In this document: positions 42,000 through 63,559 of the stretch, one piece after another
Layout: each line of letters begins with the position of its first letter
Numbering within the stretch: position 1 is the stretch's first letter
Assembly (NCBI RefSeq): GCF_037975245.1
Contig: NC_092579.1
Coordinates: forward strand, 17,012,178-17,076,177
Length of the DNA stretch: 64,000 nucleotides
From: Apostichopus japonicus
Lineage: Eukaryota > Echinodermata > Holothuroidea > Aspidochirotida > Stichopodidae
Reading direction: 5' to 3'
Made by a program: the position numbers and the translations under genes
Notes under the pieces: model-generated
Databases searched by the model: none
Told to the model about the DNA's origin: nothing
Seen by the model: only the letters and a program-made list of their open reading frames with translations

Positions 42000-42246
42000 T
42001 TAATTTACATTATCCATCTTGAGTACCCATGCATAATCACAGGGCAGTTGAGGACCAGCCAAGACTGGGAACTGAATGGTCATACTGACACCAGACTGTG
42101 AGCCTTTGGACCACTGGAGTGCTGTGCTGACCCCCAGCATATGGACTGTGGTAGTTTCGCTGGTTACCGGTACACCAAGATTCAGTGTATTGTTCTCGGG
42201 CCAGTCCAGCACAATGGCATAGACGGAGGTATTTTTGGTCGTGTAC
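42000..42246 (-). CDS. fucosidase coding exon 8 (C-terminal beta domain and stop)
   Basis: Acceptor TTTTGTGGTAG; 247 nt to TAA. It reads [20 protein letters not shown] and so on, ending [13 protein letters not shown]. It forms the end of the C-terminal beta-sandwich of GH29 enzymes. Confidence 0.93.
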
Positions 42247-45200
42247 CTACCACAAAAACAGAAAGAAGATTGTTTTAAGTAGTGGTGTCAACTAGGAAAG
42301 CTTCAGACATTCGGCAACACGTCTAATTTTAACTCACAAACTTAGGAAAAAATATATTGTTCAAAATATACTGACACTGCTCTTATCCCCACTCGAATAT
42401 AGGATAAGTAAAGAACCCTTTTTAGAATGTTAGGCTTTGAACCTACACTCTGTCAGATGATATACAGATTTCATTATATCTATTGCTGCAGCTGTAACTT
42501 AAACCTCTCAACCATAGCAACAGTACAGAAACATGACCAGAGTGAGCAAGCTGGCAAAATGCTAGCTATTATTGTTTCTCATTAGAATGCTTTTGCCAAC
42601 TTGAAAATAACATCCAGGTAGTCTGGTGTCTCTAGTGTTTAGCATCGTCAATTTGACCAAAAAAAATAATAAGACCGGTGAAAAAGCAAAATGTAGAAAT
42701 ATTTACTCATAGTGCAATGGGTGTGGTCAATTGGTTCTACTACTGAAGGGGTTTGGGATTATGATAAATGCAAAATTGCCATTTCCAACGAAATGAAATG
42801 GTCAGACGAAGTAGTAATGTCTTTCAAGGCTCTTACCATACTCCAGGAGTAAAGGTGTCATTTTGAGATGTCCATGGGTGTGAAGCATAGATGCCTTCAC
42901 CATTCACCTTCAACCAGGCTCCAATCTGTCTCAACCTCTCTTCAAAGATGGGAATGATGCGTCCATCATGTGTAGGTCCGAAATTCATGAGCATGTTACC
43001 CCCACAGCTGAGAAAAATGGAGATCAAAACAATATTTAAGTACAATTCTTATAGCAAACTTTGTTTACACACAATGAAGGTTGACATGGTCACTTTTCTT
43101 GCTCATGGTAGCTTCTGTTGTGATAAATAACCTTAACTTTGTGTTTCTAATAAATCGTGTGGATTAACTGAAATTTAAGCCACAAGCATTAACCGTCTTA
43201 CGTGAACTTATGAGAAAATAAGTGCGTTTAATTTGAAATGCTTACTGAACATTGGTTACTAGAAATGAAGGTTATGGAAATTGCAACCCTGCAATGATTT
43301 GTTGAAGCAGAACCTTCTTCAGTTACAAGATGGCTTTGTTTCGTAATTTACAAAACTAGAAATGTCCAATAAAATCTTTGATATCAGTGCTTGCATTGAT
43401 TGTTCTCATTCATGCAACTTTAAGCCGAATGCTATATTCAGCTGTTTTAGTTATCTGCCACTGGTCACCACAATTAACCTTTTTACCTGCACACGGCAAG
43501 TACCACACATCTCACCAGGCTAAGGCTTGCACGAATTGAGATAACACTTGTACTGATATACACATTACATCCTAATTGTAAAGATCAGAAACTATAATTA
43601 CATGTATTCATACATGTAGGCTTCAAGAACACTAACAAGTTAGTTTTATGTTGCTTACAATCCAAATTTGCCAAGCAACTGTCGTAATGATGTTTTCCTT
43701 GTCTAAAAATGAATCACGAAAACACTCAAAGCTGGAAAATAATGTGAATCTTTGGATGAAACCAAACCAAAGAATTTATGATCTCATCTTCAACTTGATC
43801 ATCAGAAAAACTGTTAATGATTAGCAAAAGCTACTCAATCAACAGATACAAACAATGAAATAAATACGATACAAAACGTGCTTGGATCTCTGGTTTAGCA
43901 GTATACTCTTTGTAGTGTCTAGTTTAATAATATTGTGATGGTTTCATTTAAATTAATGAAAGAAAGAAAGAATGAAGGGATATTAATCTTAATATATATT
44001 TTAGGGGTATGATGTCAAAGGTCATTTGAGTCTAAATCTTTGATGCCGTATACAAGCGTTTTAATTTTCACAATGTATATTACAACATGTCTATAGGACA
44101 TCATCATTCAAGGTAGTAGCAAATTTAGAATTATTTCTTGCCATACTTAAGGATTTCAGGAAAGGTTATGACAGCCAAATAATATGGTTATCAAATCTAA
44201 TCTACTAGTATTGCTGCAGTTCTGTTGCAGTAACTCCAATAAAATTGTATATTACAAAATGGACATCATGATTGAAGTTAGTAAGCAAATATCAAATGAT
44301 TTCTTTGCCATGTATATTATGATTTCAGGTAAGATTGTGACACCTTAGCAATATATGGTTACTGTATGAATCCACTAATATTTTCTGCAGCTCTGTTTAA
44401 CTCCCTTCAGTATAACACTGTATATTAACACATGTCTATAGGACATCATGATTGAAGATAGTAAGCATATTTCAAATTGTTTCTTATTTTATGATTTCAA
44501 CAAAGGTTTCAAGTAATATGGGTAGCTATGAAACTATCTCCTTGTAACTCTCTTTGAGAGTTTGAGCTTTAATTATCACTTGAATTTGTAAAATGGCTTT
44601 ATACTCCAGGAAGTTGCCAACACAACTCTGCCATTTGTACTTGGACATTGATCAAACCACTTTAACCTTGACTGCTGGTATATGAGGAAACTGGACATGG
44701 AGGAAGATGTTACCCATGAAACCAAATCACCAGTCACCTGTTTCTCATACCTGCTGTCCAGGTTTCAAGTCTATTCCTAATCACTTCCTTATAAAATTAT
44801 CAAGAGGATGAATAAACTAACTCAGCAACATCCCTCCTAGTTGTGTTTTCTTTTTGAAGGGAAGAGGATTGTTGGGGGGGGGATGGGCACATGGAATGAC
44901 TAATTAAAATGAAAAACCATATTTAAGGAAGGGAATCACACTTTACGAGAACTGTTTACTAGCTGAAGCAATGTCTGACACCAGTCTAACATAGTTACTG
45001 TAATTGTTGCAGCAGCACACTATAACAACCTATAACAATATAACACTAACAACCTATTACACTAACAACCTATAACAGTACAACACTTACAGCCTATAAC
45101 ACTATCAAACTATAACACTATCAAACAGCCTATAACACTAACAAATTATAACAGTATAACACTAACAAACTATAACACTAACAAGCTATAACAATATAAC

Positions 45201-48200
45201 ACTAACAAACTATAACACTAACAAACTATAGCACTAACAAACTATAACAATATAACACTAAAAAACTATAACACAATAACACTAACAAACTATAACAATG
45301 TAACACTAACAAACAAAAAAACACTACCACTCTATAACACTAACAAACTGTAACACTAGAAAACTATAACACTAACAAACTATAACAACTAACCTACCAG
45401 AAAAAAATGGAACGTAGAAATACAATACAAAATCAGAGCAAACTGACCTGATGGTTTCTGCCAGGGTCTGAGTGATCTCATCCATGGTTAAGAAATCACT
45501 GTACTTAGTGTCTCGTCTGTAACCCCAAGATGTCTTGTCAATCGTCATGGCATTCTCCCATTTATGTTTCTGCAAGACACCTACACGTATCCAGGGAGGA
45601 GGAAAGTCAACATTTCTTTGGTTATCATCCTTTATTATTTCAACCAAGTACTCACCCACTTTTCTTCTCTGGTTAACTGTCGATATTTGCATTGACAGAA
45701 TGATTCATACATTAAAATACATTTTGTGTAAGACATAAGGCTAATTAAAAGCAGCACCAGGAAAAAGTCAAAACAGGATTAGTCTGGAGGTATAGATAGC
45801 AGTAGATGTCATTGTAGTAAAACTAATGATAAATCTTTAAAATCTCTACATAAAATCACAGCAAAAACTACTCAAAATCTCTACATACCATCACAGCAAA
45901 AACTCCTCAATATGCAGTACACTGGTGCAAGGTATACCTCATGTCATCATTTAGAAAATAACACAGCAAATAGCTTTGTTAAAATGTTTGGCAATCTCTT
46001 GTACTTTGCACATTTAACGCAAAACATTTTTTCATAGATTTTTACGTATTAATGAATTAACATATTTCAGACGAATGTGATGTGTATATTTGTCTAAATG
46101 CATGGCTATGATGCATTTTGCACGTACATGCAAATTTGAACTTTTCATTAAAGTAAACAGTCAAGATGTAATGATTACTTAATTCAATCATCTCCTTTCC
46201 TCGCATCAGTAACTTACCTTACAATTACTTTGTTGCATCATTAAAACACAATTTAATATTCAATAAAAAATAACATCAAGCCAAAAGAAAGAACAGAGGA
46301 GGAGGATAACAAAAGGCATTTTCTGATAAGACATTAAGTAAGTTACAACTCTGCTTATAACCTTTAAGGTTTTACCTCTCTTTAATAGGCTTACCACATA
46401 GAGTTAAAGCGACTTAAAAGTACAGTGTACAAGAATGGACTTTGGAAGTAACAACAATGGAACACAAAAGGTAGTGGAACGAAAATTAAACGGGTGGGGC
46501 CCTCTCAAGTTAATGACTTTCAGTTTTCTAACTTTGAGATTTTTTATTTCTTTACTTTAATCTTTACCAATTTGAACAAACATTTCTGTGTGTGTATCTT
46601 GATATTTATTATTGACACCCTTTGCAGGCGATCCTATGTAAGAAGGTAATATTCAATGTGATCCAGGCTACTTCAAATCTCGAAATATATTATTATCTCG
46701 CCCTTATTTTACCTTAAACGCTGTTGCAATTTCCCTTCACAAAGTTCTCAAATCTAATTGGTCAGAAAGAGACATTGTCGTCAAAAATAGGAAAGTTGTA
46801 CTGTAATATTTCAAAATCAACTTAAATGCTGAAAGGTCTATTTTGAAGGGATTTACTTTCCATTGACTTTGTGGTAGGGTTTTCTTAGGGATATGCCAAC
46901 CATTTGGTTTATATCTACAAGTTAATGCCATCTGCTATGTTTGCCTTTCTCCCTCAGCAGTGACATGGCCATTTAGCTACTCCAATTTTGAGCACAGAAT
47001 AGCAAATTAGCAATAGTAAGTCCTTCGATGATTCTAATCTTACAACACAAATTGTTTGTTAACTTCAAAGTTTATACCATTTCTATAAAGGTGTATTCAA
47101 ATTCATTTTTTAACCCTAAGTGGAAGGGGGCTAGCCCATAGCCTTACACTCCAACCCTTCCAGACACAATTAACACATAATCCTCCTTTCCATTCTCAAG
47201 GAAATTAATATGGTTTCACACTATGTCAATAAGGCTCCTCATTTGCAATTTTTTGTTTTGTGCAGTCATTTGTCTTTTATTTAATGTACAGTAATTGGTA
47301 TAGACTTTATGAATGCTTTGCAGTAATGAACGTTTTCTTAAGCACAATATACTTAAGGGATTGTTGAACTACACAGGTTACTATCACATATCCTTCCACA
47401 TAGTTTACCTCTCGCCACCTAGCCAAGAGATCAGTACAAACGAACTTTGATCCCGTCTGTATGAATAACATGTACAGAGACATCAGTCATTCTCATAACA
47501 TCGAAAGCCACTTCAACTGACTGTGCTGGTGGGTGTCGCAGACATCTGTTATATATATATATGACATTGCACGCACAATTGTCTCACACCGATTACTAAT
47601 ATCACATGTCGCTACACCTAGTTTACAAACTTACTTATCTATGCAAAAGATTATAAATGAACTTTGCTCATTAATGATTCAAAAGTATGTAAGACTGTAC
47701 CAAAGACATCAGATATCTTTAAAGCATACATAGGACATTTGCACTTGACACTGCCCTGCTCATAATGTTTAGTTTATTACATGACTGATATAACACATCT
47801 AGATAACACCCATGTGGTTAGTGCATGCTATGCAAACAGCTATCATCTAGATGCTTCTAAACCAATGTACATGTACAAACTGACTGTACGTATAATTATA
47901 GTACAAAACTGCCATTTCATCCCCATTCTTTTAATTATATGCAAACAGGTAAAGTGATGACCTGGATATGTTCTGTCACTTTATGCAAGACTTACTGTTT
48001 CTTGGACATTCACAGATATAGGGATGTAACTCAACTATCCACACAAACATTCTCATGTCACCCACCCTAATATCCAACCATCCTAATCATCTCGATCTAA
48101 TCTCATATTGCCACTCATCTTCATCCCAACTCATCCCTGATATTTGAAAGAGACAATTCCACTAAAAGTTCTATCAAACACTACTCGAAGTTACCCCATC

Positions 48201-51200
48201 TGCAGATTTTATCCAAATATTATCCACGCTCAGCAATCTTTCTTATTCAACACACCAGCACCACCCTTACATGACTGCACAGACAAGAAAAGCAACCAGC
48301 AAGGTTTACATGGAGCACACTTACATGATCAAAACTGAATAAAAGCGTGGACACCATGGACTAATTTTCAACAGTGTAGATGACTATAAACATAACAGAC
48401 ATGTGATCTGAATTTGACCTGCATATTGCAAAGTGACCAAAGGTACTGAAGCATGGTCCATAAAAAGACAAGACATTTTCAGGGAAGTCCCATTACTTTA
48501 CTGTTTTGACTGATCTCAATTCTTAGCTAATCTACGACATGGTATAAGCTCATCAGGATTAAATCTGTCAGCTAATCTACAACATGGTTTTTAAGCCCAC
48601 CGGGATTAAATCTGACGGCTAATCTACGACATGGTTTTTAAGCTCACCGGGATTAAATCTGTCCTGACATGTGTAGTAACCGCCGTGTTGACATCTTATG
48701 TTATTGCCACCCCAGCGGTCGTTCACCACAATGTAGTCTTTGACGGGGCTGTTTGTGATATAAAGAATGACACTGTGTGAATATGTTGACCTGCATGAGA
48801 ATACGACACTTGACACAGTGAAGATGTTGTAATGAACAATCATGAGTGGTTTCTTAATGTTGCAGCATGCAATGTGTGATGAGTTGAAAACAAAATGTGG
48901 TAATTGATGGAAGCATATCTCCCACAGACACACAACTACTGTATGGTATGGTGATTTGAAAGCCAGCAGATTTGAATGAAGAGAAACCCTGAGCAACAAT
49001 TGCTCCTGAAAATTACTCAATACTGGAGTAGAAATAAACCATCTCAAAAGTCACTAAAGCCTCCCTGGTCAAACATACCACAAACATTATGATTATAAAG
49101 GAGCTGGAGAGCTTCTGCAATACAATTTTTCTGCAGATACTTTCCACTTATGAACATTAAGTTGCATCTTTTGGAAAGTTTCTCCCATTTTCCTTCAGAC
49201 GTGTCAAGATGCTTCATGAGAGAATATTAAATGTAACCAATAGTGCAGACAAACGATTTTAAGTTTTGACAATTGCTAGCTGCCAATAGTTCTCAAGGTA
49301 CTTGTACTTATGTGGAAGGGTCTACAAGGGTTTTGCACTTTGATATGTATGGACCAGAAAGTCCTATTAAACAATAAAAACAATATGATTCTTGTACTTA
49401 ATACATGGATTCATATACCAAGTATGAAGTTCATCCATGCAGGCTTTACTTAATTTTCAAATTTTTAATCACGGATGAAGTTAACTGACCTTTTGCCTCA
49501 AAAACAATCATCAGGATTCTTATAATAACTAGAGTTAAGCTACCTATTATTAGTATGAAGGTCAAACGAGCCTCTCCTTTTAAATGTTATACTGTTAAAT
49601 TGGTTTACATAGTAAGTTGGAGGGGGCAGTGTTTACAAATGCTATACTGGATGTTGTTCATTTTGTTACCGGGCTGTTCCTACAATCACTACTTTTGCAA
49701 AGTCACTCGGAATGTAATTAACCTTTAACTTTTCAAAACTCCTAAAATATTTATCACACCAAAAGCCCAAGGATCAGTGCCATGAAGGCATAATCATGTC
49801 TGAAAGTTCACTAGTAAATGAGATTGTTATACGAAACTAAACTCAACTAGACAGGTTGGAAGTATTATGTTACCAATTTTACTGAAACACTGTACAACAA
49901 AGATCACTTTGGTTGTGTGGTGGGGATGTAGGGAGCACCTTATGATTTCACTTTGCACTGTTGTATTCACTTTATGCAAATATTATGCAAAATACAAAGA
50001 TGAACTGCATCCAAAGCAACCTTCCAATCTTATAATTATCTTAAACACAATGCCTTTTATTATCATCCCTCTCTGTTCTTTCTTTTGTCCCTGATATCTC
50101 AGGGACTCACCGGGGTTGTAACGGTCTGTGCATGTGTAGTAACCTCCGTGATGGCACGAGTCTCCCTGACCCCAACGGTCATTTACCACAACATAGTCTT
50201 TGACCGGACTGTGTGGACAGATGTGATGGATACAGACACATGAAACAATACGATGCTCGTTATTAATATAACGTTAATAAATTAAGGAAAAACCCCAACG
50301 CAAACTGTTTGAAGTAGAAATGTCATCATACAGCACAAAAGAAACATTGTTCGTAACTCCGCCAAAAAGTAAAACAAGAAAAGTTTAATGGAGAAGAAAT
50401 TATTTTCCAATGCAATCATGAGGTTAAAGCTGGTAAAAAAAGGAAAACCGAAATTATCTACAAAAATATCTCTAAAAGCTGAAGCAACCGCTTGAAAGGG
50501 CTACAACATTTTTGCAAGTATAAAATGCTTAAAGCAGCTGGTTGCCATAGCAAATACACATTAGCTAGCACAATGTTACTGAGTTTGACTTCCTAATTAC
50601 ATTAATGTGAAGTTTGTACTACAATGGATATTAAATAAGGACCAAAATATAGAAGTTGTCATTTTCTGTATCATTTCTCAATTTGAAATTGATAATTAAA
50701 CTATCATCTAAATATCAGGCAGTAATCACAAAGTAACACTATGCATGATAATGTAATATAGAAACAGAAGCATAGCAAATAATGAATAGAGAAGATAAAA
50801 AGGGGAATAAAACAATTTGAATAACAAGTAACTGAGAGTACAGTCAAGTCTTGCGAGTAGCAGTACCAGTTTAAAAAAGAATTCTTACTAAAGATGCTGC
50901 GTTATCAGAAAATTAATGGAAAATATTTTAGGAGTGAGCCGAAGAAAACCGTTTCAAATATTCAAAATTTCCTTAAAAGCAGTTTACTGATATCTTAGTT
51001 CACTCAATTTGTCCTAGAACGATCGGAGAAGCTGAATAAATAATCGGTCACTCCTTTTCAACTTTTTCTCTCTCTTCCTTTAATGGAAAATATTTTAGGA
51101 GTGAGCCGAAGAAAACCGTTTTGAACAATCAAAGTTCCGTTAAAAGTAGTTAACTGATGTCTTAGTTTACTCATTTGGTCCTAGAACTATCGAGGAAGCT

Positions 51201-54200
51201 GAATTAATAAATCAGTAATTCCTTTTCAACTTTTCCTCTCTCTTTCTCTCCATCTCTATCTCACTGTCAACATGAGAAATCAAAAAAAAAATTTAAAGAA
51301 GAATAAATCCCAATGACCAGGCTTTCATGCATGGATGTATTTACATCAGTATGTTAGTCTTTTTTAGATTTTTTGCCTATCAGAAATCTCTAACTTATTC
51401 AACACACCACCACTACCCTTACATGACTGCACAGACAAGAAAAGCAACCAGCAATGGGGCAAAAATTAGCCAAGCTAGGTGACATCAAAAATCCCTCTTA
51501 TCTCCCATTCTGTCAGCTGAACGGCACAGTTAATTACGTGATCTTTCTCCCTGCTGACCCAACGATCAAATGTCCAGCTACACTTGCTTGGATCTAATGT
51601 GTGATGTATGAATTACACTATTACAGAGCAACAAGAAAGTGGGGGCGATATTCAGAAAACAAGTCTAGCTGGCAAATGTGATGAAACAGTCTGTTAGACC
51701 AACTGATTTGAATATCAATATACTTACATGTCTCCATTCTAATCACAATACTTTACCATCTTCTGCACTACCCTCAACCCCCTCCTCCCAACTCACCCCC
51801 ACCCCCCTTCCTCCCATCAACTCACCCAGTTCCAGGTCACCACCCATCCCCTCTTCCTTGGAAATCTACTATTCATATCCAAAAACACCTGTGTTGGCAA
51901 CAAATATACCATTAATGCAATTGTTATGTATTTTGCAGCTAGGCTAGGTTACCTGTTATCAGTGAGTTGTAGACCAAGTTAACTTGAACATTTTTTAAGC
52001 ACTAAACAGCATCTCCATTAGTCTCCTAAATCAAGGGTCTTAGAATGAACGATGTCTCTGATTGGAAGTAATCTTGCCAAATGTGACATAAACTGCTCTC
52101 CTCAGAGTTTCATTTAACATCAATGTGTAATGGAAACGAAATAATGAAGTCAATAGATGAATTAAATTAAAAGTTTCCCGGTAAATGGAGAGCAAAATGA
52201 GAGAAATAAAAAAGAAGCCATGCACTTTTATTTGAGGTGCCAGATATTGCTTTCAAGCTAAATTTTTCAAACCTGTCATTGTAAAGCCAGGCAAGGAAAT
52301 CGGGGCTTTCCCAGTAGGTATCGTGGCCACCCCCTGGACCATCTGCCCAGATAAGACAAGGCTTGTAGAGATTGACTATCTCCTCTAGCTGTGGTCTCAT
52401 TACCATCTGTGAGGAGATATGAAAGAAAATGACAAACGATGAAAAAATGATGAAAGAACCAACCTTTCGTTAAAAAGCCAGGCCAGGAAATCGGTGCTCT
52501 CCCAGTACGTATCTGGGCACATCCAATCACCGTCCGACCAAATCAGGTGTGGTTTGTATTTGTTAACAATTTCATGCAATTGCGGTTTCATGACCATCTA
52601 CAAATGAAAAAAAATTAGATTTTCAAACACATTTTCCGCTTTTCTTTGTAATGGGGGGGAAGGGGGGAGGCAGTCTTTTCAAATCAGCTTCTTGGCCAAA
52701 GCCCTACTTGTTTTATATAGTTCTAATAACTAATATAAAATGCACCAGAAAACTTCATATTAAGGTCACTAATAAAAGAAATCATCATATGCCCTACACA
52801 AATTGTAATACATCTTAGTAAGCAAGTTATTATAACAGTCATTGTGTCGGCTGGTCAGCGGTCCTAACAGTCATTGTGTCGGCTGGTCAGCTATTCAGTG
52901 GGCAGGCACCCTAACAGTCATTGTGTCAGCTGGTCAGCTATTCAGTGGGCAGGGGCCCTAACAGTCATTGTGTCAGCTGGTCAGCTATTCAGTGGGCAGG
53001 GGCCCTAACAGTCATTGTGTCGGCTGGTCAGCTATTTAGTGGTCAGGGGCCCTAACAGTCATTGTGTCTGCTGGTCAGCTATTCAGTGGGCAGGGGCCCT
53101 AACAGTCATTGTGTCAGCTGGTTAGCTGTTCAGTGGGCAGGGGCCCTAACAGTCATTGTGTTGGCTGGTCAGCTGTTCAGTGGGCAGGGGCCCTAACAGT
53201 CATTGTGTCGGCTGGTCAGCTATTCAGTGGGCAGGGGTCAGTTGATAGACAAATATCCAATACTAGATCACGATGATAGAGTTGAGTCAGGTCATGTTGA
53301 TTTCAGGCCGTGTACCATTACCAGGTCTGGTGATATACACTGAACTGATGCATTCAGTTGGAACCGCAAAGTCAATTTCCTACAATTCAGCATGGTTCCA
53401 ATGACTGGTATACAAAGGGTATTTGCTTGCAGTTTGGATGGCCAAAACTATCACTGTAATAGAAGAAAAAATCTGTTTCCAAAAGTTATGTTAAGTGACC
53501 AACTTAAAAATCATAAGGAGTCGTCTTATGAGAGAGCTAGATATTAAGTTTTTCCCCTGATTTAAAATGTTATACAATCATATTAAATGATGAAGAAGGG
53601 AATAAAGGCAATTTAGGCGAGGATAATTCTGTCAGAACTTCCTTAAAGAGATATACTGAGATAAAATGTTCTAATACACTAGTACACATAAATGTATAAA
53701 TACTGTACTATATCCTGTTTGAATTAGTTACCTTCATGTAATCTTGAGTGGAGAAGTTATTGGCAGCATCTTTCAAATACAATGGATGAAACCACTCAAA
53801 TAGAGAGTAATAAAGACCAAATTTGATATCAGTTCTACTTCTGACAGCTTCTGCCATTTCCCCTGGAGAGAAAGGAAGGATTTAAAAAAAAAAACATGAA
53901 AACATATAAACAGATATCATAATCTAAGCTAAAGCTGTTTATTACAGGAAATATTTGAAAACCAATCAACAAAGTTTTCCTTTCCTTTGTAACATCTAGT
54001 ACTCATCTCATTTGTTTGGTGACAGAGCTTTCCTTTATATAAAGAAATAAAGTCACTACTAATTTTAGTGCTCCATTAATATCGTTGATTGTTTGATTGT
54101 TCACAATTGTTCAAGATATTTGTTAAGGAAACCTGTTTCAGGAGGTACATTATATCACCAGTGATTGTCTGTTTTAATGCTTTAGTGCTGTACATCATCT

Positions 54201-55876
54201 GTAGTTCTGTACATTTTGGTGCTCTATAATTATCATTGACTGTTCCCAATCATTCAATATTCTCTTAAAGGAAACCTGTTTCAGGAGGTATAGTATTTCA
54301 CAAGTGGTTGTCTGTTTTAATGCTTTTGTGCCAAAGAGCATCTGTAGATTATTGGTGCTCTATATTTATCATTCAATGATTAATTGGTTGATTGACTCAT
54401 GATGAATTGAGGCTGAACGATTATTATTTAAAACTAACCGAGAGTAGACAAAAAACAAGCAAATCCATAAAGGGTCAAACAATTTTTAGGACTTCATCAC
54501 AAAATCTACTTTTAGTTTCACTTGGGATAAGAACATATACCGAAACACACACAAAAGAAGGTGTTTACATGGATGTTACAACTTTCAACACTTTTAGAAG
54601 AACGTCAATGCACTGTAAGTACAGTACAGGTTCCAGTAAGTGCTAACAAGGAAACAAATTTCTCTGGTTTTACGATGGTTTACAAGTTAAACGTCTTCTA
54701 TACTGTAAGAATGAGAATGTTACAGACTAGATACAAAATTCATCTTAAAACATCTAAAATAAATCACATCAAACTATCATTTTGCACAAATCAGAGACAT
54801 TTCATTGAACTGAAATTTGAAATCCTTTTTACTTGACGGTGACTTTAATGGTTACTGAGGTAAAAAAGTGATCAAGCTAAGGGTGAAACATACCAACAAG
54901 ATCCCTGTTTGGCCCTAGATCAACTGAATTCCAGTTCCAGGAGAAATTAGAAGCATAGTTGGTAAACCCTTCATGATGCTTGCTAGTCAAAACAACATAC
55001 CTGTTGAAGGGAAAATTAAATTTCTTTGTCAAACATAAGTTTCACACAGTTAGACCTAAACTTTTTGCAAACATATGAAGTCCCTCATGTCACACAATAA
55101 CCTGTGCATTGATGCAGATTAAAGTATTTGAACATACATGTACGTATACTAAATGGCAATGCATCGAAGGTAACCATATAAAGCAAAAAGAAAAGTCAGG
55201 TTATCGAACAAACCCAACAAGCTGGCTTACAAAACTTTCTTTCCAAGTATATACTTACTGGACAGACTAAAATGCAATTGTTCCTGCTGTTTTGTAACCA
55301 AGTAATGAGTGTCCATTTTCAGTTTTTCTTCTTTTTTTTTCTTTCTTTCAATAAGTAACCAATTCTTGGAGATGACTACATAAGGATTAACAATGCAGCA
55401 AAGTGTAAATATGTTGCCATATTGTATGAGACGAAGAGGGTAAAAAAATAGATTAAAATAACTTACTGAGCACCTGACGCCTGCAGAACATCTGCGAAAT
55501 GGTTGGCATCGAACATTTCAGCGGTGAACTTGGGAGCAAAATCAGGGTACTGGAAATGGGGCGGGTAGTTTTCCTTCATGAAGTTTACATAATCTGGGTT
55601 GCCGGTCTTCCATTTGTACCAAAACCATTCATTCTTGAATGCCGGGACGGAGTAGACACCCCAGTGCATGAAGATACCAAATTTGGCCTCATCGTACCAA
55701 CCTGGAATGGGGCGAGAGTCGATAGATTCCCAGTTTGGCTGGTAAGGTCCCTGGTGGACCTTCTCCGATTCCTTGTGGAATTGGACGACCTTCGTTTCTG
55801 GCCGGAATCTTAACTTTTGAGCTTGAGTCACAAAGACCGCAAGACACAGAATGAGAGCTTTGGTGAGGATCTCCAT
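42000..55876 (-). CDS. alpha-L-fucosidase, GH29 (FUCA1-like), complete gene with two duplicated internal exons
   Basis: Secreted or lysosomal enzyme that removes terminal alpha-L-fucose from glycans by a retaining mechanism. Eight coding positions splice in frame into 476 aa (with 5a) or 477 aa (with 5b), close to human FUCA1 (466). Residues 1-20 ([20 protein letters not shown]) form a signal peptide. GH29 landmarks: [45 protein letters not shown] (nucleophile Asp238 in this numbering), [35 protein letters not shown] and a C-terminal beta-domain ending WVLKMDNVN. Sequons include NFS, NDT, NTS and NNT. The fourth and fifth coding exons each exist as two phase-compatible copies, so the transcript should use one of each. 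Exons: 55467-55876, 54894-55000, 53732-53862, 52464-52597 (4a) or 52273-52406 (4b), 50111-50208 (5a) or 48648-48748 (5b), 45448-45580, 42837-43007, 42000-42246. Every junction is GT-AG and phase-consistent. Confidence 0.93.
42837..43007 (-). CDS. fucosidase coding exon 7
   Basis: Acceptor TTTTTCTCAG, donor GTAAGA. It encodes [20 protein letters not shown] then [20 protein letters not shown] and [16 protein letters not shown]. It is 171 nt, the same length as the matching exon of the neighbouring paralogue at 63.4 kb. Confidence 0.93.
44070..44470. repeat. three diverged ~173-bp tandem repeats in fucosidase intron 6
   Basis: TGTATATTA followed by (C)ATGTCTATAGGACATCAT, or a diverged form, recurs near 44073, 44247 and 44418, with ATTTCAGG, TTCTTGCC and AGCAAAT-like blocks in the same order between them. 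Confidence 0.65.
45020..45390. repeat. 16-bp minisatellite next to fucosidase exon 6
   Basis: About 20 imperfect copies of ACTAACAAACTATAAC and shorter variants. The array begins about 60 bases downstream of exon 6 (minus strand), inside the intron. Confidence 0.9.
45448..45580 (-). CDS. fucosidase coding exon 6
   Basis: Acceptor ATACGTGTAG. It reads [20 protein letters not shown] then [20 protein letters not shown] and ETI, ending AG before donor GTCAGT. It matches the family KWE....SWGYRRD segment. Confidence 0.92.
48525..48663 (-). repeat. triplicated splice-donor segment of fucosidase exon 5b
   Basis: A ~48-bp unit containing the last bases of exon 5b, its donor and about 25 intron bases (AGATTTAATCCCGGTGAGCT, then AAAAACCATGTCGTAGATTA on the minus strand) occurs three times in tandem. 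The first copy is the real exon end. The second keeps CCCG|GTGGGC; the third is changed to CCTG|ATGAGC. Reading past the first donor meets an in-frame TAG within ten codons. Confidence 0.85.
48648..48748 (-). CDS. fucosidase coding exon 5b (alternative copy)
   Basis: 101 nt, same phases as 5a, acceptor ATATCACAAACAG and donor GTGAGC. It reads [20 protein letters not shown] then [13 protein letters not shown]. Compared with 5a it has one extra residue before the Cys, and CHHGG becomes CQHGG. The open frame and splice sites are intact. It lies about 1.36 kb downstream of 5a. Confidence 0.88.
50111..50208 (-). CDS. fucosidase coding exon 5a
   Basis: 98 nt after acceptor TGTCCACACAG; its first T completes Ser (AG|T). 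It reads [20 protein letters not shown] then [12 protein letters not shown] and ends CCG before a strong donor GTGAGT (phase 1). CHHGGYY is the form found in animal fucosidases such as FUCA1. Confidence 0.9.
50918..51240. repeat. ~166-bp tandem duplication in fucosidase intron 4
   Basis: GGAAAATATTTTAGGAGTGA at about 50918 and again at 51084 starts two direct copies, each ending in a CTCCTTTTCAACTTTT-like stretch followed by a CTCTCTC tract. The copies are diverged but collinear. Confidence 0.85.
52273..52406 (-). CDS. fucosidase coding exon 4b (alternative nucleophile loop)
   Basis: Also 134 nt with the same phases, lying 57 nt downstream of exon 4a. Acceptor CTCCTCACAG, donor GTTTGA. It encodes [20 protein letters not shown], then [20 protein letters not shown] and LYND. 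About 31 of 44 residues match 4a. The nucleophile Asp is kept, but the next five positions (GDWMCP in 4a) become GPGGGH, removing the conserved Trp and Cys. An open frame, intact splice sites and conserved flanking residues argue against a dead copy. Confidence 0.88.
52464..52597 (-). CDS. fucosidase coding exon 4a (conserved nucleophile loop)
   Basis: A 134-nt exon after acceptor ATTTGTAG, ending AG before a weak donor GTTGGT. It encodes [20 protein letters not shown], then [20 protein letters not shown] and LFNE. SDG(D/E)W.CPDTYW is the standard animal fucosidase nucleophile loop, with Asp238 the catalytic nucleophile. It begins in phase 0 and ends in phase 2, as exon 4b does, and comes first in transcription order. 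Confidence 0.9.
52833..53238. repeat. 47-bp minisatellite in fucosidase intron 3
   Basis: Eight copies of a 47-bp unit plus a truncated 32-bp first one, each beginning TAACAGTCATTGTGTC, then GGCTGGTCAGCTATTCAGTG. The start points 52865, 52912, 52959, 53006, 53053, 53100, 53147 and 53194 are exactly 47 apart. Copies are nearly identical, so the array is recent. It ends about 235 bases upstream of exon 4a. Confidence 0.95.
53732..53862 (-). CDS. fucosidase coding exon 3
   Basis: Acceptor TTTCTCTCCAG. It reads (G)[20 protein letters not shown] then [20 protein letters not shown] and YMK, ending in phase 0 before donor GTAACT. It matches the family [15 protein letters not shown] segment. Confidence 0.92.
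54065..54375. repeat. two to three ~150-bp tandem repeats in fucosidase intron 2
   Basis: GGAAACCTGTTTCAGGAGGT occurs at about 54128 and 54270, each followed by TTGTCTGTTTTAATGCTTT-like sequence. A third partial start (GTGCTCTATATTTATCATT) occurs near 54353. Confidence 0.8.
54894..55000 (-). CDS. fucosidase coding exon 2
   Basis: Acceptor CCTTCAACAG. The first base completes Gln, then [20 protein letters not shown] and [16 protein letters not shown]. Donor GTATGT. The KHHEGFTN motif helps form the fucose-binding pocket in GH29. Confidence 0.92.
55467..55876 (-). CDS. fucosidase coding exon 1 (signal peptide and N-terminal GH29)
   Basis: The ATG at 55876-55874 gives MEILTK and a clear signal peptide. 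An upstream in-frame Met (MQIGTN) would put six polar residues before the hydrophobic core, and a splice acceptor (TTCATCTTGCAG) ends at 55889, between the two Mets, so MEIL is preferred. The exon contains [19 protein letters not shown] and ends GCTCA before donor GTAAGT (phase 2). Confidence 0.92.
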
Positions 55877-62194: not shown

Positions 62195-62441
62195 TCAATT
62201 AACGCCATTCATCTTCAGCACCCAAGCATAGTCACAAGGGAGTTGAGGTCCTGCCAGTGGAGGGAACTGCACAGTCATTGTCACACCTGGTTTGGCACCT
62301 TTGCTCCACTGAAGAGGGGTCTTTACTCCCAACATAGTCACCACTGTACTTGCAGATGGTGCTGGCGCGCCGAGGTCCAGGGTGTTGTCCTTAGGCCAAT
62401 CCAGAACAAACGCGTATACTGAAGAGTTCTTCATGGTGTAC
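62195..62441 (-). CDS. second fucosidase, last exon
   Basis: 247 nt to TGA at 62197-62195. It encodes the C-terminal beta domain, with the same length and intron position as exon 8 of the first gene. Confidence 0.93.
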
Positions 62442-63559
62442 CTGAGATGGGACATCAAAATAATGATACAATTACAGAAGTCTGTGATGATCTCAAATAC
62501 AGATTTTTTCCTGCTTTTCCTCAGCCCCCCCTCCAAACCCTTCCACCCCCCCCAAAAAAATTCATATCAGCTTAATTGAAGATATCAAGAAAATCACATA
62601 GAGAAAAATAACTATGGAACAGATATACAGATTATTGACTCAATTTATGCTGCGTTAAGTTATTCTATTATTCTATTTTTTACTGGAATTAGATTTGTCA
62701 TTTGACAAAACTTTTTCTTTGTTTTACTGCAGCATCACATACTGTGAGAAAGTGGAAGCGTTTGATATCAAATAGGCATAAAAAGGCAGTACTTTTTTCA
62801 CTTGCTTTGACTGGAAATTATAGTCCTTTGCTAATAGACAAAATGCTTTTCAAAAATTTATGCCACTGCTCAAAAGATCATGTTATGCATTTTTAATTAT
62901 GTCACATGAGACACTTTAACTCAAGAAAGCTTGTTACTTTTCAAAATACATGTTCACATTTTGGCTAGGCTTAGAACACTTTCTGATGACAGGTACGTAA
63001 GCCTAGCCCCTACATTGTATATAGCATCATCAGAGATGATATCATTTCCTGTGATCAACTATCAACTCTGATTGCCAACATAATGTACCATTTTAGGCAG
63101 GAAAAAATATTTCAACAGATGCATAAAGGTGGAATATTTTCAAATTGATTTCATTTATGAATTTATTGGATGATAAGACCACATTCTGAAAAGTAGCAAG
63201 CAATTTTTATTAGGTACATTGTAAAACATGTGTTGCAACAGTAAATACAACCAGCTCACAATTTCATTTGTGTGTGACATGTGTGCTAGGGTAACAAATC
63301 AACTTACGTTCAAGTACAACAAACTTTTTTGGCTTCTTGCTTTCATTCCAAAGCATTTAATTGATTGCCACCATTTAGTTTATCTTACCATACTCCAGGG
63401 GTAAGGGTATCATTTTGAGCTCTCCATGGGTTTGATGCATACACTGCCTCTCCATTGACACCGAGCCAGGCACCGGTTTGTCGCAGCCTCTCCTCAAAGA
63501 TGGGAATAATGCGACCATCATGAGTTGGTCCAAAGTTCATCAGGAGGTTACCACCACAA
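62195..63559 (-). CDS. second alpha-L-fucosidase (GH29), last two exons only (partial)
   Basis: Tandem paralogue of the 42-55.9-kb gene, same strand, running off the right edge. Exon 63389-63559 (171 nt; acceptor TTCTTCAG, donor GTAAGA) reads [20 protein letters not shown] then [20 protein letters not shown] and [16 protein letters not shown]. Exon 62195-62441 (247 nt; acceptor CCATCTCAG) reads [20 protein letters not shown] and ends [13 protein letters not shown] before TGA. Exon lengths and phases equal those of the first gene and the proteins are very similar, so this is a tandem duplication. Whether it also carries alternative exons 4 and 5 cannot be seen here. Confidence 0.92.
63389..63559 (-). 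CDS. second fucosidase, penultimate exon
   Basis: 171 nt, entering in phase 2 (AG|T gives Ser) and leaving in phase 2 (TG|G gives Trp). It encodes the [10 protein letters not shown] segment at the end of the catalytic barrel. Confidence 0.92.

Follow-up and report, generated by a model that had tools for sequence, protein, structure and literature searches.

Two successive pairs of putative mutually exclusive active-site exons in one sea cucumber alpha-L-fucosidase gene

The stretch of DNA analysed here, 64,000 nucleotides from the sea cucumber Apostichopus japonicus (hereafter the window, whose numbering is used throughout), probably contains one working alpha-L-fucosidase gene of GH29 class A in which two pairs of mutually exclusive exons follow one another and would alter substrate use. 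Pair 4 would exchange the segment with the nucleophile Asp, and pair 5 the loop with the acid/base Asp; a mature mRNA would take one of 4a and 4b plus one of 5a and 5b, yielding up to four enzymes that are identical elsewhere.

The gene lies on the minus strand, as do all features given below, and is intact from its ATG to its stop codon; its coding exons span 55876-42000, with GT-AG at all borders between them. Exon 1 (55467..55876, the coding part from the ATG), deduced from its donor site, frame, and homology, opens the catalytic domain, and its N terminus resembles, by eye, a signal peptide. Exons 2 (54894..55000), 3 (53732..53862), and 7 (42837..43007) follow from the exon model; exon 6 (45448..45580) carries the HKWE motif, with the counterpart of human Glu289, and exon 8 (42000..42246; exon model, Pfam) encodes the C-terminal fucosidase domain and the stop codon. 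All four combinations with one exon of each pair are open, giving 476 residues with 5a and 477 with 5b, stop excluded. Of these, isoforms a-a and b-b were scanned against Pfam: the catalytic domain Alpha_L_fucos (PF01120) scored 429.8 bits in a-a and 417.0 bits in b-b (cut-off 25.2), and the C-terminal fucosidase domain (PF16757) 94.5 bits in each, so that the domain content of both fits GH29 class A of the animal type. Among solved structures, human FucA1 (7pls) was the top match of isoform b-b (E = 1.2e-169). The intron right after exon 6 holds a degenerate AT-rich tandem array (45023-45393).

The original prediction had pointed to two versions of the nucleophile exon, and these are indeed present: exons 4a (52464..52597; nucleophile Asp codon 52534-52532) and 4b (52273..52406; nucleophile Asp codon 52343-52341) are each 134 nt long, run from phase 0 to phase 2, are open, and are bordered by AG acceptors and GT donors, with the predicted coordinates right to the base. 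Comparison of the translations also bore out the exchange of DWMCP, in the FucA1-like nucleophile loop of 4a, for PGGGH, in the Gly-rich loop of 4b, exactly as had been claimed, and the two stand as homologous, frame-compatible alternative active-site exons within one GH29 gene. They have 31 of 44 residues in common, the other 13 being changed, and are 67.4% identical over 132 nucleotides, with the 43 differences distributed 10/7/26 over the codon positions. Such likeness is not due to chance, since tblastn of one against the other, in a search of the loci, gave E = 8e-19; an assembly artefact as the source of the copies can be dismissed as well, given that they differ at 33% of their nucleotides. 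Upstream of exon 4a, the intron includes a 47-bp minisatellite of some eight copies with 93% matches (52852-53237).

Exon 5, which the original prediction had named without discussing it, is likewise doubled. Exon 5a (50208-50111) and exon 5b (48748-48648) measure 98 and 101 nt, have equal phases, and encode the acid/base loop, with the Asp codon at 50126-50124 and 48663-48661, respectively; 8 of 32 residues differ, and the extra codon of 5b adds one residue in the loop preceding the acid/base. The 3' end of exon 5b and its donor occur in about three tandem copies with a period of 47 (48525-48663), and a splice at a later copy of the donor repeat would read through an in-frame TAG.

When 4a and 4b are joined, the sequence NERW is followed at once by two stops, and skipping exon 4 (with 5a) breaks the frame and leads to an early stop. 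The same outcome, a broken frame with an early stop, was found when 5a and 5b are both included after 4a and when exon 5 is skipped after 4a. Among the double inclusions and skips tested, then, only transcripts with one exon of each pair encode a full-length protein, and each pair must therefore be used mutually exclusively for protein to be made. For pair 4, exclusion would come from the intron between 4a and 4b (52407..52463), which at 57 nt is probably too short for a lariat to form normally, together with nonsense-mediated decay. Across the window gene and its tandem neighbour, for which 17 introns and gaps were listed, the next shortest measures 161 nt. Counted from the donor, the branch-point-like adenines of the 57-nt intron lie at 13, 16, 24, 34, and 44 nt, the one at 34 nt being 23 nt before the intron end. 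Given both the length of the gap and these distances, a steric block to 4a-4b splicing is plausible. It would not operate in pair 5, since 5a and 5b are 1362 nt apart; exclusion there would depend on frame and decay, and on further regulators.

The donor of 4b is weak, with six of nine consensus bases, a score equalled by four other donors among the 17 scored, including that of the neighbour's sole exon 4. GTTTG is the exon 4 donor of 4b, of the neighbour, and of both distant paralogues described below, 4a having GTTGG, and this recurrence dismisses the weak donors as special regulatory marks. On the outside of pair 5 there is a direct repeat, with the 66-nt element R1 (51389..51454) in the intron between 4b and 5a and R2 (48237..48302), also 66 nt and 94% identical to R1, in the intron between 5b and 6; a genome search returned only these two matches. 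The repeat includes a polypyrimidine-AG, then TCAT and GTAAGG. We considered whether R1 and R2 could act as docking or selector RNA and rejected this, since the match of a partly complementary stretch downstream is at chance level (E = 0.32) and the layout of the repeat cannot choose between 5a and 5b.

Human FucA1 (PDB 7pls/7pm4), of the same family, has a loop, GEWECPDTYW, that resembles that of 4a. In the accessible text of the cryo-EM paper, D225 is the nucleophile and D276 the acid/base residue of FucA1; W223 and E289 are also named there, but not residues 226-231 of the changed loop (PMC9548408). Unlike the window gene, FucA1 has no alternative catalytic exons that we could find in that part of the paper (PMC9548408). 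In the alignment of 7pls with isoform b-b, chain positions 200 and 251 correspond to D225 and D276 (counted, offset 25), and the same offset also places E289 and W223 correctly. The Asp that matches human D225 is present in both 4a and 4b, and that matching D276 in both 5a and 5b; each of the four isoforms thus retains both catalytic Asp residues along with the Glu of HKWE in exon 6. Directly after Asp-Gly, the next five residues read EWECP in FucA1, DWMCP in 4a, and PGGGH in 4b, the last of these having lost Trp, Cys, and any acidic residue. Replacement of 4a by 4b would place the nucleophile next to a Gly-rich, His-containing loop instead of an aromatic and acidic one, and this may alter the choice of fucosides or the efficiency with which they are cleaved. 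The changed loop may also contact the leaving group, as the original prediction proposed.

To place the gene among its relatives, the genome (671,581,487 bases in 35 contigs) was searched with PF01120, which gave at least 22 matches, grouped into at least four genes, all on one contig (C19). Exon 4b and exon 5a, used as queries, gave five exon-4 matches (5/5 candidates scored) and six exon-5 matches (6/6 candidates scored), respectively, all on the same contig. A loose tblastn search for further copies of exons 4 and 5 yielded none that was convincing among the matches listed, and for a retrocopy of the 4b-5a-6 splice form the joined query returned eight matches, each to a single exon. Aside from the fucosidases, several pieces of COX1 were found on contig C29 (14745-31219) in addition to the mitochondrial contig C35 (16,099 bases); they are perhaps nuclear copies or a misassembly. 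Contig C35 is readable under more than one genetic code; with the echinoderm/flatworm code (table 9), Asn falls at conserved Asn positions of COX1, and the order of its genes looks echinoid/holothuroid. Two distant paralogues, at about 1.13 and 20.53 Mb of contig C19, have one exon 4 each, ADGDWEAGSEYW and ADGDWDAGSEYW, and one exon 5 each. A tandem neighbour (contig C19, 17082.5-17074.4 kb) stands head-to-tail with the window gene; its exon 7 (63389..63559) and exon 8 (62195..62441) form the end that falls inside the window (63559-62195), with exons 1-6 beyond it. The neighbour has two exon 5s and is complete with each of them alone, both together breaking the frame, and its sole exon 4, ADGSGRGPDTYW, is 77% identical to 4b versus 70% to 4a. 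Exons 2, 3, 4, 5a, 6, 7, and 8 are equal in length between the two genes.

In a nucleotide tree, the window 5b grouped with the second exon 5 of the neighbour in 92.8% of 500 bootstraps, which argues that the exon-5 pair predates the split of the two genes, or else was converted. For exon 4, the nucleotide tree (500 bootstraps) united 4b with the neighbour in 59.6% and 4a with 4b in 37.6%, and the codon model prefers 4a and 4b as sisters (lnL -538.73 vs -540.87). The neighbour, whose exon 4 is 4b-like, is itself very likely expressed, since published primers and siRNA match it exactly. The available portion of a study of A. japonicus describes siRNA knockdown of an alpha-L-fucosidase, AFU, checked in coelomocytes by qPCR, and a reduced saponin content (PMC13412492); its two AFU qPCR primers and its siRNA match exon 1 of the neighbour to the base (locus L014, 8335-8235). 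This was so in one of the eight loci tested, and the window gene has 4, 2, and 5 mismatches.

Are both exons of a pair in use? An open frame alone is weak evidence, since under neutral simulation the frame stayed open in 17% of runs for exon 4 and in 31% for exon 5. Between 4a and 4b, dN is 0.21 (dS being saturated and not computable by NG86), and 3000 neutral simulations of this divergence gave 19 or more residue changes versus the 13 observed; for 5a and 5b, neutral simulations gave at least 11 versus the 8 of 32 seen. In the codon model (seven tests with uncorrected p values, on short sequences with several branch lengths saturated), omega on the 4b branch was 0.038 (p = 0.0029) or 0.032 (p = 0.0038) under two topologies and on the 5b branch 0.28 (p = 0.48, neutrality not rejected); neither 4a (p = 0.074) nor 5a (p = 0.14) rejected neutrality, and the neighbour branches gave p = 0.035 for 5a and p = 0.66 for 5b. 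From these patterns, 4b looks to be under purifying selection and functional. It could still be argued that one exon per pair is used in practice, with 4b (or 4a) decaying or entering unproductive transcripts that lower expression. The weak donor of 4b would agree with this, as would the changes unique to the 4b lineage, distributed 4/3/6 over the codon positions without significant third-position excess (p = 0.24), and the failure of 5b to reject neutrality; yet neutrality of 4b is rejected in the codon model at p of about 0.003, the residue changes stay below every neutral run, 4b preserves its splice sites, length, and nucleophile, and an intact neighbour relies on a 4b-like exon as its sole exon 4. 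On balance, we hold such single use to be improbable. Less probable still is a two-gene unit, in which read-through transcripts of the upstream tandem fucosidase would splice into the exons of the window gene: the head-to-tail order and the matching exon lengths would permit it, but each gene is complete, with first and last coding exons of its own.

A closer competitor accepts that both isoforms are made and concerns what the 4b forms do. The loop that follows the nucleophile in human FUCA2 is Gly-rich and lacks Trp, like that of 4b; FUCA2, however, is a separate human gene, whereas the Gly-rich loop of the window gene sits in an alternative exon. According to the accessible part of PMC12427801, FUCA2 has its catalytic residues at matching positions, with spacing of 51 and 13 (which says nothing about the loop), and is inactive on pseudo-substrates; 4b could therefore confer a new specificity or yield a weak enzyme. 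If the latter, 4b forms would be poor hydrolases, either fucose-binding or active on substrates missed by standard assays, much as is suspected for human FUCA2, and the preferred explanation would be modified in its last step only. The loss of the Trp, acidic, and Cys residues from the loop and the inactivity of FUCA2 (PMC12427801, in part) speak for poor hydrolysis, as does the Gly-rich FUCA2 loop; against it, none of the four isoforms lacks either catalytic Asp or the HKWE Glu. We thus consider poor hydrolysis rather unlikely, and favour a working gene whose two exon pairs would alter substrate use.

Alternatively spliced active sites are already known (COQ-2, CYP4F3, ACSL1/6), and what differs here is a glycosidase with two pairs. 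Splice switches that rebuild the active site of an enzyme are termed rare in the available text of PMC7434440. As described there, in COQ-2 of animals that make RQ, C. elegans among them, mutually exclusive exons remodel the core near the active site and switch the substrate; this is one pair, in a membrane prenyltransferase, shown with RNA data and exon removal (PMC7434440). The window gene, in contrast, encodes a glycosidase and has two successive putative pairs, which involve both catalytic carboxylates. In CYP4F3, mentioned in the same part of PMC7434440, a splice switch similarly alters substrate specificity, although this is a cytochrome P450 with one switch. The Gate-domain exons of ACSL1 and ACSL6 are also a mutually exclusive pair that swaps a short substrate-channel motif, yet what is swapped there is a gate rather than the catalytic residues, and joint skipping of the two exons is reported as well in the portion available (PMC1543647), whereas the skips tested in the window gene break the frame. 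The original prediction knew of no alternative active-site exons described for an animal fucosidase, and none was found in the parts of the open-licence literature available to us, where one paper with frequent mention of fucosidase discusses splicing with regard to vitellogenin; nor did we find, in the same partial texts, a doubling of both catalytic exons of a glycosidase.

It is tempting, if tentative, to go one step further and suggest a combinatorial active site, where both loops would be chosen independently to give four active sites with substrates that probably depend on tissue, the FUCA1-like and Gly-rich loop types being splice forms of one gene; we regard this as possible, at somewhat less than even chances. 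The doubling of both exons that bear the catalytic carboxylates of a retaining glycosidase amounts to a natural four-way swap experiment, which could show how the specificity of GH29 enzymes depends on the nucleophile and acid/base loops, and whether a fucosidase with the Gly-rich loop type is active. Sea cucumbers produce fucose-rich sulfated polysaccharides. Given this, and the tie between saponin content and the AFU that matches the neighbour (PMC13412492, portion available), the physiological effect of tissue-specific isoforms could be a visible one.
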